Of a DNA stretch of 64,000 bases, positions 31,091 through 37,858 are shown piece by piece. The stretch lies in NCBI GenBank assembly GCA_903879335.1, contig CAIRLC010000044.1, positions 62,001 to 126,000 on the forward strand, given 5' to 3'. Each line of letters opens with the position of its first letter. Positions within the stretch are counted from its first letter, which is position 1. Under the pieces are notes generated by a model. It ran no database searches, had not been told where the DNA came from, and saw only the letters and a program-made list of their open reading frames with translations. A program made the position numbers and the translations under genes. Source of the stretch: an uncultured Pseudomonadota bacterium (lineage in GTDB: Bacteria > Pseudomonadota > Gammaproteobacteria > Steroidobacterales > Steroidobacteraceae).

Positions 31091-31166
31091 GCTCCCATCG
31101 TCTAGAGGCCCAGGACACAGCCCTCTCAAGGCTGGTACGAGGGTTCGAATCCCTCTGGGAGCGCCA
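31091..31166 (+). tRNA. tRNA-Glu (anticodon CTC)
   Basis: 76 bases including an encoded CCA. Acceptor GCTCCCA pairs with TGGGAGC; anticodon stem CAGCC/GGCTG encloses CTCTCAA with anticodon CTC; the T arm is GAGGGTTCGAATCCCTC. The D arm TCGTCTAGAGGCCCAGGAC is typical of tRNA-Glu. It would read GAG only, so a UUC isoacceptor must be encoded elsewhere. Confidence 0.96.
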
Positions 31167-31291: not shown

Positions 31292-33055
31292 TTACCAGCC
31301 AACCGCCTGCCCATCTTTTCGATGATCAGACGCTCCGCGATAAACACGTGGAATTTTTTGATCCTTGCCAGGGCCATCAAGTTTGGACGGGGTCGTCGGC
31401 AGCAGGCCAACCGCTTGGTATCCGCCCATGTCGTCGCCGTTATCAGGCGAAACCCGATGACCAAGACGGCTCAATGCGGGACCAACCTGAGCAAATAGCG
31501 CCGTTTCTAATCGCAACAGATTGGTGCCTTGTGCATGGGTAAATCGGGCTAAATCTGAAGCCGCTTGCGGGTTCAAGCCGAGATCGATCATGTCGATCAA
31601 GACTTGCGCGTGGCCTTGAGCCTGTTGACTGCCTCCCATCAACCCAAAAGCCAACAGAGGCTCGCCGTCCTTCATCAAAAATCCCGGCAAAAGCGTATGA
31701 AACGGTCGCTTACCCGGGGCAATCACATTTGGGCTGGACGGATCGAGGCTAAATAACGCACCACGGTTATTCAGTACGAATCCAAACCCAGGTATGCCGA
31801 TACCGGATCCGAAGGTGTCATAGATGCTGTAAATGAACGACACCATGTTGCCCTCGGCATCGGCGGTCGCTAAGTAGACAGTCCCTCCAACCGGGTCACC
31901 TTTGGGCTGTGGCGTACTTGCGTGACGCAAGCTGATCTTCGAGCACAGCGTCGCTGCATAATCTTTAGAAATCAGTCTTGCTACCGGAACGTCAACCGCA
32001 CCGGGATCCGCGTTAAAGGCGTACAAATCCGTGTAGGCCAGTTTTTTAGCCTCCACTAGGAGATGCCAATAAGAGGGAGAAGACGGGCCAGCCTTCGCCA
32101 AGTTAATGCCCAATTTCGGAGCACACACCTCAAGAATATTGAGCATCTCTAGGGTCGCAAAACCCTGCGTATTGGGCGGCATTTCATACACATCGTAGCC
32201 ATGGTAGCTCGTCGTGATGGGATCGACCCAGTTTGCATGCGTCGCCAACAGATCGGCCGCAGTCATTGTGCCGCCGAGAGCCCTCGACTTAGTCAATATT
32301 GCGTTCGCGATATCGCCTTCATAAAACGCCGACCGCCCTTGTGCTCCGATCATCCTCAAAGCGCGTGCAAGATCCGGGTTTCGAAAAACAGAGCCAGTCT
32401 TTGGGATCGTTCCATTCGGCAGATAGACTGAACTGGCATCAGCGTCACCTGCCAACACTTCAGCGCCATAGACCCAATCATGGGCAATGCGCTCACTGAC
32501 GGCATATCCTTCCTCTGCGATCACCGCAGCGGGCTCCAACAAAGCCGCTAAGTCACGGGTACCGTAGCGGCGAAGGATCGTATCCCAAGCATCAACAGCG
32601 CCCGGAACAGTGACAGCTTCAATCCGGTGCTGCGGCATCTGATCGGCAAATCCGTGTTTGGCTAACCAGGCTGCCGTCGCACCTTCAGGCGCACGGCCAC
32701 TGCCGTTGAGCGCAACCAACCGGTGTTCCTTGGCAACCCAGGCAATCATGAACACGTCGCCGCCTATCCCTGCACTACCAGGTTCGACGACGTTTAAGAC
32801 AGCTGCGGTAGCAATCGCCGCATCAAATGCGTTCCCGCCGCTTTTGAGCACGTCCAAGCCAGCGTTCGCGGCTAAAGGTTGGCTTGTGGCCACAAGACCG
32901 TGACGAGCAAACAACTCCGAGCGCGTCTGACTTAACCAACCACTCGCCCGGTCACCACGAACGGCAGGCAGGGGTGTGGAAAATGATGCGTACGAAACAA
33001 CAGCGAGCAGCAGCGTCACAGTAATCTGCTCGCGGTGGCGACTTAAACGGCGCAT
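31292..33055 (-). CDS. Gamma-glutamyltransferase-family protein, exported
   Basis: An Ntn-hydrolase of the gamma-glutamyltranspeptidase family, probably periplasmic: a signal-like segment (ITVTLLLAVVSYASF) opens the 587-residue protein. GGNAFDAAIATAAVLNVVEP and GIGGDVFMI are family motifs. Thr392 in GGTVYLATADAEG is the expected autocleavage residue and nucleophile. The usual TTH that starts the mature small subunit is T-V-Y here, and LNNRGALFSLDP with APGKRPFHTL resembles the YwrD-like branch, whose substrates are poorly known. It starts 6 bases after the rubredoxin stop, so it is the last gene of a four-gene operon with the desaturase-like enzyme. Confidence 0.88.
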   Translation of the reverse strand: MRRLSRHREQITVTLLLAVVSYASFSTPLPAVRGDRASGWLSQTRSELFARHGLVATSQPLAANAGLDVLKSGGNAFDAAIATAAVLNVVEPGSAGIGGDVFMIAWVAKEHRLVALNGSGRAPEGATAAWLAKHGFADQMPQHRIEAVTVPGAVDAWDTILRRYGTRDLAALLEPAAVIAEEGYAVSERIAHDWVYGAEVLAGDADASSVYLPNGTIPKTGSVFRNPDLARALRMIGAQGRSAFYEGDIANAILTKSRALGGTMTAADLLATHANWVDPITTSYHGYDVYEMPPNTQGFATLEMLNILEVCAPKLGINLAKAGPSSPSYWHLLVEAKKLAYTDLYAFNADPGAVDVPVARLISKDYAATLCSKISLRHASTPQPKGDPVGGTVYLATADAEGNMVSFIYSIYDTFGSGIGIPGFGFVLNNRGALFSLDPSSPNVIAPGKRPFHTLLPGFLMKDGEPLLAFGLMGGSQQAQGHAQVLIDMIDLGLNPQAASDLARFTHAQGTNLLRLETALFAQVGPALSRLGHRVSPDNGDDMGGYQAVGLLPTTPSKLDGPGKDQKIPRVYRGASDHRKDGQAVGW

Positions 33056-33061
33056 CGGCTC

Positions 33062-33238
33062 TTATTCCTCAAGCAGTGCGAAATCGGCCTTGGTGACGCA
33101 GCAGTCCGGGCAATACCAATCATCCGGAACATCTGCCCAACGTGTGCCTGGCGCGAGCCCGTGGTCTGGATCGCCTAATTTTTCATCGTAAATATAGCCG
33201 CAGAACTGGCAGGCATACTTGTGGAAGGAATCATCCAT
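33062..33238 (-). CDS. Rubredoxin
   Basis: Small one-iron electron carrier, 58 residues. It starts MDDSFHKYACQFCGYIYDE and contains GDPDHGLAPGTRW, PDDWYCPDC and ADFALLEE. The four iron ligands are Cys10, Cys13, Cys43 and Cys46. The residue after the last ligand is Cys47 where rubredoxins almost always have Gly, which is odd. The ATG overlaps the stop of the TIM-barrel gene by 8 bp and the stop lies 6 bases before the GGT-like gene. Rubredoxins of this type usually feed electrons to membrane di-iron enzymes such as AlkB, and such an enzyme lies two genes upstream. Confidence 0.93.
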   Translation of the reverse strand: MDDSFHKYACQFCGYIYDEKLGDPDHGLAPGTRWADVPDDWYCPDCCVTKADFALLEE

Positions 33239-34100
33239 GCGCGGTAACCTGCGCTGCGTCTTCCCGGTCCAAATCGGCCCAGATTTCTCGAATCCAGTCC
33301 CGCATTTGCAACGCTTCTTGCCATCGATCTGACAGCTCTAAACGCTGACCATCGGTAATAGCATAAGGCGGCGGGCCGAGTTCACAGAGGAAAACACAGG
33401 TCGCATTTTCGTGATTTCGAGAGCGCCAGCTGCGCAACCCATCTCGCCACAACTCCTTGAAGAGGGCGACCCACGGCGCATGTTGCGGAAAATCGAGTTG
33501 GATCTGAATCTGCTCTCGCGAGGCCACCCGCCCTTGGAAGCAGTCACTGCGATCATGAATCCGCTGTAAATAGCCTCGGTCTCGAGGGCATAAGGGCAAC
33601 TGAAATTCACGCTCGAGCACAAAATGCGAAAGATCAGCGGTCAGTAGCAACTCAGGAATCGCGTCCAAGACTTCCAACGTGTAATAGAGGTCATTCAGCA
33701 GGCTGTCCCGATGGGTTTCAAAGAGCAGATCAAATCCCATTGCGGCGGCCTGATCCATCCAGCGGTATATCAGCGGAATGGCGCCGGCTACGCTGACGGG
33801 CATGACTTGACCGATGATGTTGACCTTCGCCGCGTTAACCCGTTTCGAAAAATCCAACAATGGCTTCATATCCCGACTTTGTCGGGGGAACAAATTAACC
33901 ATACTTTTAAGGCCGTGTTTTTCGAAATAGGGCAACGTTGCCTCGTATTTCGGCAAGTCGCTCACCGCAGGGTCGACACAGACCCCGTCGTAGCCTGCCT
34001 CGGCAATGATTTCGAAATTCCGCTCATGTCCACGCTCCTGCACAGCCGGATTCCGGAAGTCCATCGCCCAGAGTGACTGGAATATTTCTAACTTCTGCAC
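33231..34100 (-). CDS. Xylose-isomerase-like TIM-barrel protein, function unknown
   Basis: A 289-residue protein of the sugar phosphate isomerase/AP endonuclease family 2 type. The likely metal ligands are spaced as expected for this fold: Glu128 in FETHRD, Asp156 and His159 in ADLSHF, His182 in RIHDRSD, and Glu240 in CELGPPP. Members isomerise sugars, dehydrate (for example dehydroshikimate) or cleave, so substrate cannot be deduced. The start is GTG with AAGGAG 6 bases upstream. It lies 13 bases after the desaturase-like gene and overlaps rubredoxin, so all act from one mRNA. Confidence 0.8.
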   Translation of the reverse strand: MQKLEIFQSLWAMDFRNPAVQERGHERNFEIIAEAGYDGVCVDPAVSDLPKYEATLPYFEKHGLKSMVNLFPRQSRDMKPLLDFSKRVNAAKVNIIGQVMPVSVAGAIPLIYRWMDQAAAMGFDLLFETHRDSLLNDLYYTLEVLDAIPELLLTADLSHFVLEREFQLPLCPRDRGYLQRIHDRSDCFQGRVASREQIQIQLDFPQHAPWVALFKELWRDGLRSWRSRNHENATCVFLCELGPPPYAITDGQRLELSDRWQEALQMRDWIREIWADLDREDAAQVTAHG

Positions 34101-34113
34101 GAACGACTCCTTC

Positions 34114-35127
34114 CTAGAACGAGGTCAAGAACGAGACGGCGTTACCACCGCTAACATTACCGACGCGGGCCAGTGCCAGATACGCTTCACCCTCCTGACT
34201 CGTCGACTCTCCGACCACCCGGGAGACTCGATAGCGATGAAAACTCTTGAAGGATGCCCAAAAGAGAATAACGCGGCTATCGTCATCACCAAAGAGTTCG
34301 CGATGCAATGCCGGCAAGCGAAACCATGGCGTCGTTGGTTTAGCGTGATGAGCGTTGTGATATCCAAAATTCAGTACTAGAACGTTAATCCAAGGATGCC
34401 GGAGAGACAGCGGATTACTGAAGGTATGTGCTTGCTCGTACACACGGTCGCCTCGATGCGGCATTTTGACGTTCTCAAACAACACTGGCGTACCGCCGTA
34501 ATCGTGTTGCAAGGCATCCATGAATCGTAGAACCGTCATCATCAGCAAATAGGCGATAAAATAACCAACGGCCGCGCTCGGGAAAGCCCAAGCCAATAAG
34601 AAGAAAAGCGAGCCTCGCACTAGGATAACGATTGAGTTTCTTATGCGCTGATCCCGACGTGCCGGAATGATGAAAGATCCGAAGATCATAATGAAATGCA
34701 TGACCATGTCATGCGCGGGAAAATAAAACCATTCTAAAAATTGGACGATCCGAGCGGCGATGGGGTGAGTATTGAACCACTGACGAGACTCGAACCACAT
34801 AACATCTGCACTATCCACATGATGGCGAAAATGCTTCACCCGGATATCTTCATAGGTGCCATAGGAACTACCCGTGACCCAAGTCAGGATTGAACCTAGG
34901 TGCGCGTTACCCTTGTTCTGACTGAAAATCGCGTTGTGTCCACATTCATGGAGCAGATAGGCCGCAATAATCATGGCGTGGGCAAGCCAAAGGGCACCGA
35001 GAACACTGGGCCAGATTCCGCCGTGCATTAACGCGTACAGACCAAGGCTATACCCGGTCCCTACATATAACAGTGCAGCACCGTTGTACACGGCGCCCTC
35101 GCGATCTTTGAATCCTAAAAAACTCAT
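34114..35127 (-). CDS. Fatty-acid-desaturase-family membrane di-iron enzyme
   Basis: Integral membrane protein of 338 residues with the three histidine boxes of membrane desaturases/hydroxylases: HECGH at 60-64, HFRHH at 99-103 and HNAHH at 257-261. Several hydrophobic segments surround them (LGALWLAHAMIIAAYLL; LVRGSLFFLLAWAF; AVGYFIAYLLMM). An additional LQHDYGG motif lies between boxes two and three. The ATG at 35127 is preferred to an upstream one because sequence before it is not membrane-like and GGAGAGG precedes it. The adjacent rubredoxin suggests a rubredoxin-fed oxygen-dependent reaction. Substrate unknown: acyl desaturation, hydroxylation or decarboxylative chemistry are all possible. 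Confidence 0.85.
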   Translation of the reverse strand: MSFLGFKDREGAVYNGAALLYVGTGYSLGLYALMHGGIWPSVLGALWLAHAMIIAAYLLHECGHNAIFSQNKGNAHLGSILTWVTGSSYGTYEDIRVKHFRHHVDSADVMWFESRQWFNTHPIAARIVQFLEWFYFPAHDMVMHFIMIFGSFIIPARRDQRIRNSIVILVRGSLFFLLAWAFPSAAVGYFIAYLLMMTVLRFMDALQHDYGGTPVLFENVKMPHRGDRVYEQAHTFSNPLSLRHPWINVLVLNFGYHNAHHAKPTTPWFRLPALHRELFGDDDSRVILFWASFKSFHRYRVSRVVGESTSQEGEAYLALARVGNVSGGNAVSFLTSF

Positions 35128-35328
35128 AGCTCTCGTCGCCTCTCCATCATCAAATACCGCGCCCACAAGATGCCTTGCCTGGCGACAGCCGACCCCAAAG
35201 AAAGACATTCTTCCACATTCGAACAGCCAGGTCGCCGCCGCTGATCATGCATTGACCGTCATTGGTCGGATTGTCCAGACTTGCCCATGACCAGTGTCAA
35301 TGACTGGACCGGATGTGAGGAGCTTAGG
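35128..35328. promoter_or_regulatory. Divergent control region between desaturase and ligase genes
   Basis: This 201-base region separates divergent starts and must hold both promoters. CCAGT-N7-ACTGG at 35291-35307 and GACC-N6-GGTC at 35254-35267 are inverted repeats that could bind a regulator; TTGACC at 35252-35257 resembles a -35 element toward the ligase, though no good -10 follows. No regulator gene is adjacent. Confidence 0.4.
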
Positions 35329-36873
35329 ATGGCCGTCGAGGACCCTTATCGCTGGATTGAATCGGTGGCGCAATCGGCCGGACACAGCCTATGCCTTGAG
35401 GACGACCTTGGCCGGCGAATGAGCTATGCGGAGGTCCACCAGTCTGTAGGCCGGTACGGCGCCGTATTGCTCGATTTGGGGGTGCATGTGGGCGACCGGG
35501 TCGCGCTCCTGGTTGAGAAATCCCTAGAGGCTGTGCTGGTCTACCTCGCCTGCTTACGGGTCGGGGCGGCCGTGGTTCCCCTCAATACGGCCTATACCGC
35601 GGCTGAGCTACGCCACTTTATTTCAGACAGCCAACCTCAAGTACTTATTGTCGATCCGGCCAAGACTGAGGCCGCCGTGGAAATCGCAGCGGCGAACGGG
35701 TGCCCTACCGTCGAAACGCTGGGTGCACGCGGTAACGGCTCAATCGCCAACCGGGTTGAGATGCAATCAGTCGGCTCACCTGTCATCTCGATTGCGGCCG
35801 ACACCCTCGCCGCTTTGCTCTATACCTCTGGAACGACCGGCAGGTCGAAGGGGGCCATGATTACTCGCGGCAATTTGGTCGCCAACGCTCAGTGCCTCGC
35901 GAGTAGCTGGCAAATGACCCGTGAGGATCTGTTGGTCCACGTGCTGCCTTTATTCCACGTCCACGGCCTATTTCTTAGTCTGAATACCATGTTCGCCGTC
36001 GGTGCCGCGGTACGAATCCATCGGATATTTGATCCTCGGCTGACAATTGAATCTCTCTCAAACGGCTCCGTATTTATGGGAGTGCCGACTCACTACACGC
36101 GTCTGCTCGCCTGCCCCGAACTCACTCCGGAGGCGGTGAGCGGAGTACGGCTCTTCATCTCTGGATCTGCCCCTCTGCTCAGCGAAACTCATCGAGAATT
36201 TGAGGTTAGAACTAGAAAAGTAATCCTCGAGCGGTACGGCATGACAGAAACGCTCGTGAATACCTCTAATCCTTACACCGGTGTTCGTAAACCCGGATCC
36301 GTAGGGCTGCCGCTACCCGGTGTAGAGCTTCGCATCACCGACCAACGCACCGACGGCGATGGGCCGAACGTCGGGATGATCGAAATTCGTGGACCAAATG
36401 TGTGCGCCGGTTATTGGCGTGCACCCGATCAGACTGCCGCGGATCGGACTGTTGACGGCTATTTCAGATCTGGCGACCTGGGCTTTATCGACTCAGATGG
36501 GTACCTGCATATCTCCGGACGGGCAAAAGATCTCGTGATTACCGGCGGATACAACGTTTATCCCAAAGAAATTGAGTTAGAGCTCGACCGTCTTGACCAG
36601 ATATCTGAAAGCGCCGTTTTTGGGGTGCCTCACCGAGATTTCGGCGAAGCAGTCACAGCAGCCGTCATCCTCAAGCCGAGTGCGGCAATGCACGAAGCGA
36701 CTGTGATTGAGTTGATGCGTAATCGCTTGGCTAGATACAAAGTCCCGAAGCGCGTGATTGTCGTTGACGAGTTACCCAAGAACACGATGGGTAAGATCCA
36801 AAAGAACAAATTGCGAGAGCGCTTTGCCCATCTTTACCTGGATACGTTGGCTAAGCCGAATGGCATACGGTAG
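35329..36873 (+). CDS. AMP-dependent acyl-CoA ligase, malonyl-CoA synthetase (MatB)-like
   Basis: Activates a carboxylic acid with ATP and CoA. The 514-residue protein has the AMP-binding motif LLYTSGTTGRSKGA, LPLFHVHGLF, MGVPTHYTRLL, RLFISGSAPLL, ERYGMTETLVNTSNPYTG and the C-terminal KDLVITGGYNVYPKEIE plus PKNTMGKIQKN with the catalytic lysine. The HVHGLF, MGVPTHYTRLL and NTSNPY segments are characteristic of malonate/methylmalonate ligases of the MatB type, so a short dicarboxylate is the likely substrate. The ATG at 35329 follows AGGAG by 6 bases; an upstream in-frame ATG has no such site. No malonyl-CoA decarboxylase is nearby. Confidence 0.87.
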   Translation: MAVEDPYRWIESVAQSAGHSLCLEDDLGRRMSYAEVHQSVGRYGAVLLDLGVHVGDRVALLVEKSLEAVLVYLACLRVGAAVVPLNTAYTAAELRHFISDSQPQVLIVDPAKTEAAVEIAAANGCPTVETLGARGNGSIANRVEMQSVGSPVISIAADTLAALLYTSGTTGRSKGAMITRGNLVANAQCLASSWQMTREDLLVHVLPLFHVHGLFLSLNTMFAVGAAVRIHRIFDPRLTIESLSNGSVFMGVPTHYTRLLACPELTPEAVSGVRLFISGSAPLLSETHREFEVRTRKVILERYGMTETLVNTSNPYTGVRKPGSVGLPLPGVELRITDQRTDGDGPNVGMIEIRGPNVCAGYWRAPDQTAADRTVDGYFRSGDLGFIDSDGYLHISGRAKDLVITGGYNVYPKEIELELDRLDQISESAVFGVPHRDFGEAVTAAVILKPSAAMHEATVIELMRNRLARYKVPKRVIVVDELPKNTMGKIQKNKLRERFAHLYLDTLAKPNGIR

Positions 36874-36976
36874 TGGATACCGTACCGACCAAGCATCGCC
36901 CTAAATCAGACATGGTTACGTTTCACGCCATCTAAACTACAGTGTAACGTCCAGAATTACGCGGAGAATCTTCAGC

Positions 36977-37858
36977 ATGCTGACTCAATGGCTCTTGTAC
37001 GGAATGGTAGCGCTAGCTCACCTGATCGCCGTCACTGCGTGGGTACGTGCGACCCGCCGGAACAAGCCATCCTCGAAACTAGGCCTCGGGGACGTGATCA
37101 TCGGCATCGTCGTCAACTTCTTGGACACATTAGGCATTGGCTCCTATGCGCAAATTACCTCGCTTTTTAAACTCCGAGGCCGCCCGACGGACGATTTGAT
37201 CCCTGGCACCATGAATGTCGGCAGCGCCATTCCCTCTTTTTTCGGGGCGTTTCTGTTCATCGTCTCTATAAAAGTTGATCCGCTACTGCTTTTTGCAATG
37301 ATCGGCAGCTCCGGTCTTGGTGCTTGGTTTGGCGCCGGACTCGTAAGTCGCATGTCCAAACGTCATATCCAGACGGTGATGGGCTGCGCTTTGTTGGTGG
37401 CGGCCGGATTCCTGGTGATGGGATTACTGGGCTTGATCCCGAACTCCGGGACTGAAATGACGCTCACGGGTTGGCGATTCCTACTCGCCGTAGGGTCAAA
37501 TTTCATTCTGGGCGCGTTGATGTGCATCGGAATCGGTAATTACGCGCCAAGTATGGTTCTGCTATCGATGCTTGGCATGCACCCGATTGCTGCGTATCCC
37601 ATCATGATCGGAAGTGACGGATTGATTATTCCGGTGGCCAGCATTGGCTTTATCCGCTCCGGCCGCTTTGATCATTCCGTCGCGGTGGGGTTAGTGATTG
37701 GTGGGGTCTTGGGAACTTTTGCCGCTTTCCCGTTGGTCACCGCCATCAGTGGCCACTTAAACGCGATGCGCGGTCTCGTGATTCTTGTCGTCCTATATGC
37801 TGCTGTTTCTATGCTGATGGCTGCGAAGCACAACAAAGCACAGGACGCTGGGGCCTGA
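36977..37858 (+). CDS. TSUP (TauE/SafE) family permease
   Basis: A 293-residue polytopic membrane protein with about eight hydrophobic segments. DVIIGIVVNFLDTLGIGSYA near the N terminus and its counterpart GALMCIGIGNYAPSM in the second half are the duplicated signature of TSUP permeases. These export or import sulfite, sulfonates or small organic anions. It follows the MatB-like gene by 103 bases on the same strand, which allows but does not prove a joint role, for example transport of the ligase substrate. GGAGA lies 9 bases before the ATG. Confidence 0.85.
   Translation: MLTQWLLYGMVALAHLIAVTAWVRATRRNKPSSKLGLGDVIIGIVVNFLDTLGIGSYAQITSLFKLRGRPTDDLIPGTMNVGSAIPSFFGAFLFIVSIKVDPLLLFAMIGSSGLGAWFGAGLVSRMSKRHIQTVMGCALLVAAGFLVMGLLGLIPNSGTEMTLTGWRFLLAVGSNFILGALMCIGIGNYAPSMVLLSMLGMHPIAAYPIMIGSDGLIIPVASIGFIRSGRFDHSVAVGLVIGGVLGTFAAFPLVTAISGHLNAMRGLVILVVLYAAVSMLMAAKHNKAQDAGA

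Follow-up and report, generated by a model that had tools for sequence, protein, structure and literature searches.

A desaturase-like protein and a xylose-isomerase-like TIM barrel form a recurring gene pair that probably oxidises a nitrogen-rich compound

The window analysed here, i.e. a stretch of 64,000 nucleotides of contig CAIRLC010000044.1 (positions 62,001 to 126,000, forward strand) from an uncultured γ-proteobacterium of the Steroidobacteraceae, contains a minus-strand operon that encodes a membrane di-iron desaturase/hydroxylase-like protein (DES), a xylose-isomerase-like TIM-barrel protein (TIM), a rubredoxin and a GGT-like protein, and from which the gene of a MatB-like ligase diverges. 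The core of this operon, DES and TIM, probably oxidises a nitrogen-rich compound, the substrate itself being our deduction. More specifically, and as a tentative proposal that falls somewhat short of being probable, DES would be a rubredoxin-fed di-iron oxygenase acting on an N-alkyl guanidine or amine and TIM its hemiaminal-cleaving partner. In this proposal we infer the role of rubredoxin as donor, the substrate class, the hydroxylation, the function of TIM as a lyase and the accessory role of the GGT-like and MatB-like proteins.

DES and TIM are the recurring unit

Titled genome records were scanned with a TIM alignment, which yielded 300 relatives. The best 80, among which the window genome does not figure, were retained; they come from Woeseiaceae, Lysobacterales, Chromatiales, Hellea, other proteobacterial metagenome-assembled genomes (MAGs) and Pseudomonas. 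As the picking of open reading frames overlooked TIM or DES in several loci, pairs were counted by tblastn at up to 4 kb from TIM, with thresholds of 100 bits for DES and GGT, 250 bits for MatB and 35 bits for rubredoxin, at which a divergent rubredoxin could be missed. Among these 80 loci DES was found near TIM in 40, rubredoxin in three, GGT in two, one of which has just a C-terminal part, and a MatB-like ligase in one. One locus (L116), in which DES is cut by the contig end (80 bits), was counted as lacking it, AMP-ligase matches in L123 and L124 (26-27% identity) were left out of the MatB count, and L114 and L115 repeat the contigs of L032 and L033. The DES-TIM pairing spans several gammaproteobacterial groups including Pseudomonas, and all loci in which GGT, MatB-like ligase or rubredoxin accompany TIM have a TIM that is 71-84% identical to that of the window. 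The recurring unit is DES-TIM, and rubredoxin is an addition in the window's close relatives.

The two genes also co-occur at the level of genomes. With thresholds of at least 150 bits for TIM and at least 300 bits for DES, weaker rows being dropped, a strong TIM is present in 37 and a strong DES in 40 of the order's 196 genomes; both occur together in 31 genomes from nine genera, TIM only in six, DES only in nine and neither in 150 (Fisher p 4e-22, kinship ignored). DES and TIM lie on different contigs in 20 of the 31 genomes and are about 820 kb apart in the single-contig genome G065, which argues that their link is not a matter of neighbourhood alone. Among the six TIM-only genomes, G097 and G179 encode another desaturase-type protein directly 5' of TIM, with a match to PF00487 shown for G097.

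Some TIM genes have other surroundings. In nine loci of the same order (L052, L055-L057, L059-L061, L064 and L067; genomes of 1.1-1.6 Mb) the gene row is GST-like gene, TIM, APH-family kinase and class III aminotransferase, and DES is found elsewhere in six of these nine small genomes. Thirteen weak TIM matches of the Pseudomonas family (44-64 bits, L237-L249) have no DES in the 16 kb covered and were treated as TIM-barrel proteins of another kind. Directly downstream of DES-TIM, Pseudomonas viridiflava encodes an inverse autotransporter with many Ig-like repeats (L122:11279-16504), and in a close relative a c-di-GMP-I riboswitch lies about 3 kb beyond the DES-TIM-rubredoxin genes (L121:14229-14313).

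Families and predicted folds

DES matches PF00487 well above the cut-off (122.8 versus 29.7 bits), which is its sole Pfam match. The histidines of its HECGH, KHFRHH, QHD and HNAHH clusters are invariant in 16 aligned sequences, and likewise in 13 sequences spanning the window-type group and the more distant group described below, suggesting a putative two-iron site. The predicted model has an AlkB/desaturase fold, and a Foldseek search with it retrieved three chains of the desaturase/AlkB type (E up to 0.063) besides noise. By sequence, DES matched none of the PDB chains at E up to 1, although a structure of AlkB has been solved, and on sequence similarity it does not belong to AlkB; it further differs from AlkB/AlkG in having TIM as a partner, and no alkane genes were recognised near DES. 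UndB, a fatty-acid decarboxylase, is a desaturase-like membrane di-iron protein as well. Identity with UndB was rejected, as the residues E85, R112, R121, D137, E139 and R246, printed in the available part of PMC12746148, fit DES under no single spacing, a weak test that uses residue numbers only. The P. aeruginosa QscR operon PA1895-1897, given in the text available from PMC6113619 as a fatty-acid hydroxylase domain, an unknown protein and a desaturase domain, can be set beside DES-TIM by description only.

The window TIM stays below the cut-off of PF01261 (15.7 versus 31.1 bits); the TIM of locus L253 passes it with 40.7 bits. The window protein is predicted to form a TIM barrel with a xylose-isomerase-like fold. 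Residues E128, D156, Q189 and E240 are invariant in 19 sequences, and are candidates for the four metal ligands (Glu, Asp, His/Gln, Glu) of PF01261-type barrels; His replaces Gln at the position of Q189 in L221, L223 and five aligned TIMs of the more distant group. D-tagatose/D-allulose 3-epimerase and IolE-type barrels are about 10-15% identical to TIM in alignments, and the operon partner of TIM is an oxygenase rather than sugar genes. A PDB sequence search with TIM gave chance matches only, AsbF among them (E 0.12).

Guanidine riboswitches precede nine of 14 related DES genes

A search that covered 369 genomes at class level and 398 at phylum level led to 14 loci of a related DES group, hereafter the riboswitch group, to which the counts below refer. 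Among 11 class-level DES proteins with at least 300 bits those of the window and of G006 are of the window type and nine entered the riboswitch-group set, with five more from the phylum search, whereas G395 (116 bits, contig end) was dropped. The DES proteins of this group are 36-47% identical to the window DES (nine compared) and agree with it in the di-iron histidines and in an SFL motif at the C-terminus.

According to Rfam a guanidine riboswitch is located just upstream of DES on the same strand, directly or after one transporter gene, in nine of the 14 loci. In L250, L251 and L253 a Guanidine-II riboswitch lies 8-16 nt 5' of the DES start, with two GGGACGACC loops visible in the elements of L251 and L253 and one exact in L250. 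L258 has a Guanidine-I riboswitch 116 nt 5' of DES, and the order Guanidine-I, NMT1-type binding protein, DES recurs in L259, L260, L268, L269 and L270. No guanidine riboswitch was found in the other five, i.e. in L252, L257 and L261 at a loose threshold and in L271 and L272, the 18-kb rescans of L266-L267. A TIM relative (37-54 bits) lies near DES in seven loci (L250-L253, L257, L271 and L272), and five aligned TIMs of the group share the motifs FETHR, D-x-SH and E-[LF]-G with the window TIM. In L253 both UAAP1 and UAAP2 exceed their cut-offs, and the locus further encodes a urea-carboxylase-like protein, a type III glutamine synthetase and a creatininase-like protein; creatininase-family genes are also present in L252 and L273.

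In a tree without L274 that is rooted with a divergent branch, the window clade (support 100/100) is nested among 13 riboswitch-group DES genes. Given this nesting, the link to guanidine may be ancestral and may have been lost or changed in the window clade. L273, L274 and L275, probably from the Pseudomonas family, are headed by a Guanidine-I riboswitch followed by binding protein and DES, with no TIM match; downstream of DES, L274 encodes a short-chain dehydrogenase/reductase and L273 creatininase- and isochorismatase-family proteins.

No link between this DES family and guanidine riboswitches was found in the literature searched, although tables of the original Guanidine-I and -II papers may list such a desaturase. 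The desaturase that appears in the available text of three guanidine-riboswitch papers (PMC12186494, PMC11410670, PMC11018352) is NapI, the words desaturase and isomerase are absent from the searched text of PMC7736828 and PMC9788692, and the riboswitch-linked desaturase in the part available of PMC2211319 is under B12 control.

Putative electron donors and a parallel branch

A second type of TIM (256-268 bits) occurs in seven of 148 genomes of the family of Pseudomonas turukhanskensis, besides that species. Six of the seven have a DES-like match about 1.5-1.7 kb upstream that is very divergent (19-25 bits); the remaining TIM is near a contig end. The gene row in L223 is desaturase-like protein, Rieske ferredoxin (PF00355), ferredoxin reductase and TIM, the reductase being HcaD-like, under the cut-off of that model. 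As the combination of oxygenase-type protein, electron chain and TIM thus recurs with a different donor, the branch lends support to rubredoxin in the role of donor in the window operon. The rubredoxin of this operon is the only PF00301 match in the entire genome.

One-carbon and methylated-amine genes

An MTHFR-like gene separates DES from TIM in several loci of Lysobacterales and related MAGs (L138, L139, L142 and L174); in L186 such a gene is found upstream, accompanied by genes of the MttB-like and FAD amine-oxidoreductase types. TIM is, in many Woeseiaceae loci, the last gene of an operon that encodes a class III aminotransferase, two CrtO-like oxidoreductases, a GcvT-like protein and an NDP-forming-type CoA ligase, and that adjoins a BetI-type regulator; the GcvT-like protein is closest to the C-terminus of trimethylamine N-oxide demethylase. 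On contig C17 of the window genome the genes for this aminotransferase, the two CrtO-like oxidoreductases and the GcvT-like protein are arranged in the same way (61, 62, 44 and 50% identity), and putrescine-type ABC transporter genes and a PuuC-like aldehyde dehydrogenase gene adjoin them. Eight of the 17 GcvT-like matches of the window genome are on C17, where a methylated-amine island (C17:112001-212000, L280-L284) encodes GcvT-domain dehydrogenase-like, MttB-like and corrinoid-activator-like proteins, a methyl-tetrahydrofolate:corrinoid methyltransferase, an MTHFR-like protein, a Rieske GbcA-like protein and putrescine-type ABC proteins. Judged from these genes, the organism looks specialised in tetrahydrofolate-linked demethylation.

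In L186 an mttB-like gene whose reading frame runs on uninterrupted by a stop codon contains a match (L186:2965-3064) to PYLIS_3, a pyrrolysine insertion element (47.6 bits, gathering 38).

Proposed function and alternatives

In the proposed reaction electrons would pass from NADH via a reductase and rubredoxin to the di-iron centre of DES, which, with O2, would hydroxylate the carbon adjoining the nitrogen of an N-alkyl (probably N-methyl) guanidine or amine to give a hemiaminal. The metal-type TIM would then split the hemiaminal into the dealkylated nitrogen compound and an aldehyde, formaldehyde in the case of a methyl group, that could be captured by tetrahydrofolate enzymes encoded elsewhere in the genome, with GGT and the MatB-like ligase accessory to DES-TIM. 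An alkylguanidine is the likely substrate of the riboswitch group. For the window clade, in which the operon has no riboswitch and the window genome no UAAP1, a methylated amine or a polyamine may take its place.

The closest precedent is the methylguanidine demethylase MgdH/MgdL of Vreelandella boliviensis, in which, as described in the available text of PMC12508155, MgdH makes long-lived N-(hydroxymethyl)guanidine, MgdL speeds its splitting and the operon carries Guanidine-I and Guanidine-II riboswitches. We propose oxidative N-dealkylation by DES-TIM since the same two-part logic would be realised in other protein families: both systems consist of two genes for an oxygenase and a partner, both occur in guanidine-riboswitch operons with guanidine-carboxylase-type genes (on the DES side in L253), and hydroxylation followed by hemiaminal cleavage is proposed for both. 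However, in that text MgdH is a 2-oxoglutarate/Fe(II) dioxygenase and MgdL is modelled as a β-barrel, whereas DES is of the membrane di-iron type, its partner is a TIM barrel and the window itself is without a riboswitch. By this description, with PF00487 as the only Pfam match of DES and a TIM-barrel model for TIM, the pair does not belong to the MgdH/MgdL families, and it may work like them, with the lyase role of TIM drawn by analogy.

In its widest form the idea is that DES-TIM constitutes an unrecognised O2-dependent N-dealkylase for methylated or alkylated guanidines and amines, a non-homologous counterpart of MgdH/MgdL with a dedicated metal-dependent TIM lyase and interchangeable donors (rubredoxin, or the Rieske ferredoxin of the parallel branch), which would be controlled by Guanidine-I/II riboswitches in one group, the other group being made up of tetrahydrofolate-linked methylamine degraders, with the window's organism among them. 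This is conceivable, though on balance doubtful.

Several results weigh against N-dealkylation by DES-TIM. In the window no guanidine riboswitch reaches the gathering threshold and none was found near the operon at E up to 10; in the window genome the Guanidine-I model gave one sub-threshold match (22.9 bits, cut-off 63; classes II-IV not searched genome-wide) and UAAP1 was not found. The 20 window-type loci, the window's own included, are all without a guanidine riboswitch, and none was found in the long window-type loci either. TIM is not near DES in seven of the 14 riboswitch-group loci, and the TIMs of this group are only 19-22% identical to the window TIM (five compared). Rubredoxin, near TIM in just three of 80 loci, is no fixed partner, the co-occurrence statistic is uncorrected for kinship, and TIM shares its fold with isomerases, epimerases and dehydratases, none of them a known hemiaminal lyase.

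A further point on this side is that DES in many Woeseiaceae loci lies beside acyl-CoA-catabolism-like genes, preceding LuxR-type, acyl-CoA dehydrogenase, carboxyltransferase, MaoC and enoyl-CoA-hydratase-like genes. Together with the membership of DES in PF00487 and its predicted AlkB/desaturase fold this arrangement would fit a true lipid desaturase or hydroxylase acting on a fatty acid or alkyl chain, with TIM acting on a sugar-like or polar product and the riboswitches of the relatives reflecting membrane adaptation to guanidine or later recruitment. We consider such a role unlikely, as it leaves unexplained why DES is paired with a TIM barrel of the isomerase type, why genes for a binding protein, UAAP and creatininase are its neighbours in riboswitch-type loci and why tetrahydrofolate enzymes are encoded nearby in the window clade. 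The riboswitches on related DES genes, as well as the putrescine-type ABC genes and the PuuC-like aldehyde dehydrogenase adjoining the C17 operon, could also indicate that the substrate of DES is a longer guanidino compound (arginine-like, agmatine-like or a guanidino acid), whose hydroxylation at the carbon adjoining the guanidino nitrogen would set free guanidine and a semialdehyde, with TIM handling the carbon product. Guanidine release by hydroxylation is established for the 2-oxoglutarate enzymes EFE and homoarginine-6-hydroxylase in the text available from PMC12186494 and PMC11018352, but in our case the one-carbon enzymes would be left unexplained, and we regard this as quite an unlikely explanation.

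The sequence-only reading had combined all five genes into one oxidative route, in which di-iron oxidation and a TIM step were joined by a GGT step and by the MatB-like ligase as the enzyme that activates a short diacid with CoA. The tight packing of the genes in the window suits this idea, as do the partial recurrence in the same-genus loci L032/L114 (ligase, DES, TIM, rubredoxin and part of GGT) and a GGT gene just upstream of DES in L117. Yet the five homologues rarely co-occur near the best 80 TIM relatives (see the counts above), an outcome that this reading had itself named as fatal to its claim, the GGT match of the same-genus genome G152 (L003) is limited to residues 416-587, and in the 18-kb locus L033 of the same-genus genome G190 DES, TIM and rubredoxin are present and neither GGT nor a MatB-like ligase was found. 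We therefore reject the five genes as a conserved unit and regard a single five-gene pathway as highly improbable; of the route, the membrane di-iron-type enzyme, the electron carrier and the metal-type TIM module hold up, the diacid activation and the GGT step do not, and the DES-TIM core stands. The same reading knew of no described pathway with this gene set, and the module of di-iron-type enzyme, electron carrier and TIM barrel matched none in the literature searched.

If oxidative N-dealkylation by DES-TIM is true, desaturase-like and sugar-isomerase-like genes would have to be re-read as a system for the oxidation of nitrogen compounds, and the small set of guanidine-releasing and methylguanidine-demethylating enzymes would be extended and linked to the degradation of methylated amines. 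Moreover, the riboswitch link provides a ligand class, so that the substrate question of the DES family can be tested with a short list of guanidines.

Gene layout in the window

The positions of the five genes are listed in Table 1. They confirm the gene order and spacings given before, i.e. a gap of 13 bases between DES and TIM, an overlap of 8 bases between TIM and rubredoxin and a gap of 6 bases between rubredoxin and GGT, with the divergent MatB-like gene about 200 bases from the minus-strand genes, and the five protein families are likewise those that had been named. The GGT-like protein passes the equivalog model TIGR00066 (376.7 bits, cut-off 357.85), and the MatB-like ligase exceeds the cut-off of NF005702 (668 versus 558 bits) as a putative malonyl-CoA synthetase.

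Table 1. Genes of the operon and the divergent ligase gene (window positions)
Feature	Position	Strand	Remarks
DES, membrane di-iron desaturase/hydroxylase-like	34114..35208	-	likely start ATG at 35127
TIM, xylose-isomerase-like TIM barrel	33231..34100	-	conserved partner of DES
Rubredoxin	33062..33238	-	PF00301, 74.4 bits, cut-off 23; likely electron donor of DES
GGT-like protein	31292..33055	-	PF01019, TIGR00066; signal-like N-terminus; accessory, not conserved with DES-TIM
MatB-like malonyl-CoA synthetase, divergent	35281..36873	+	likely start 35329; neighbour rather than part of the module

A gene for a TauE/SafE-type permease lies 3' of the MatB-like gene (window 35281-37858), and the pair recurs in the same-genus locus L032 (L032:4525-7108), so that the two genes are possibly a separate unit. 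At the other end of the operon a tRNA gene (window 31091-31163) is located between pcnB and the end of the GGT gene; a tRNA gene beside pcnB is also found in the same-genus loci L032 and L073.

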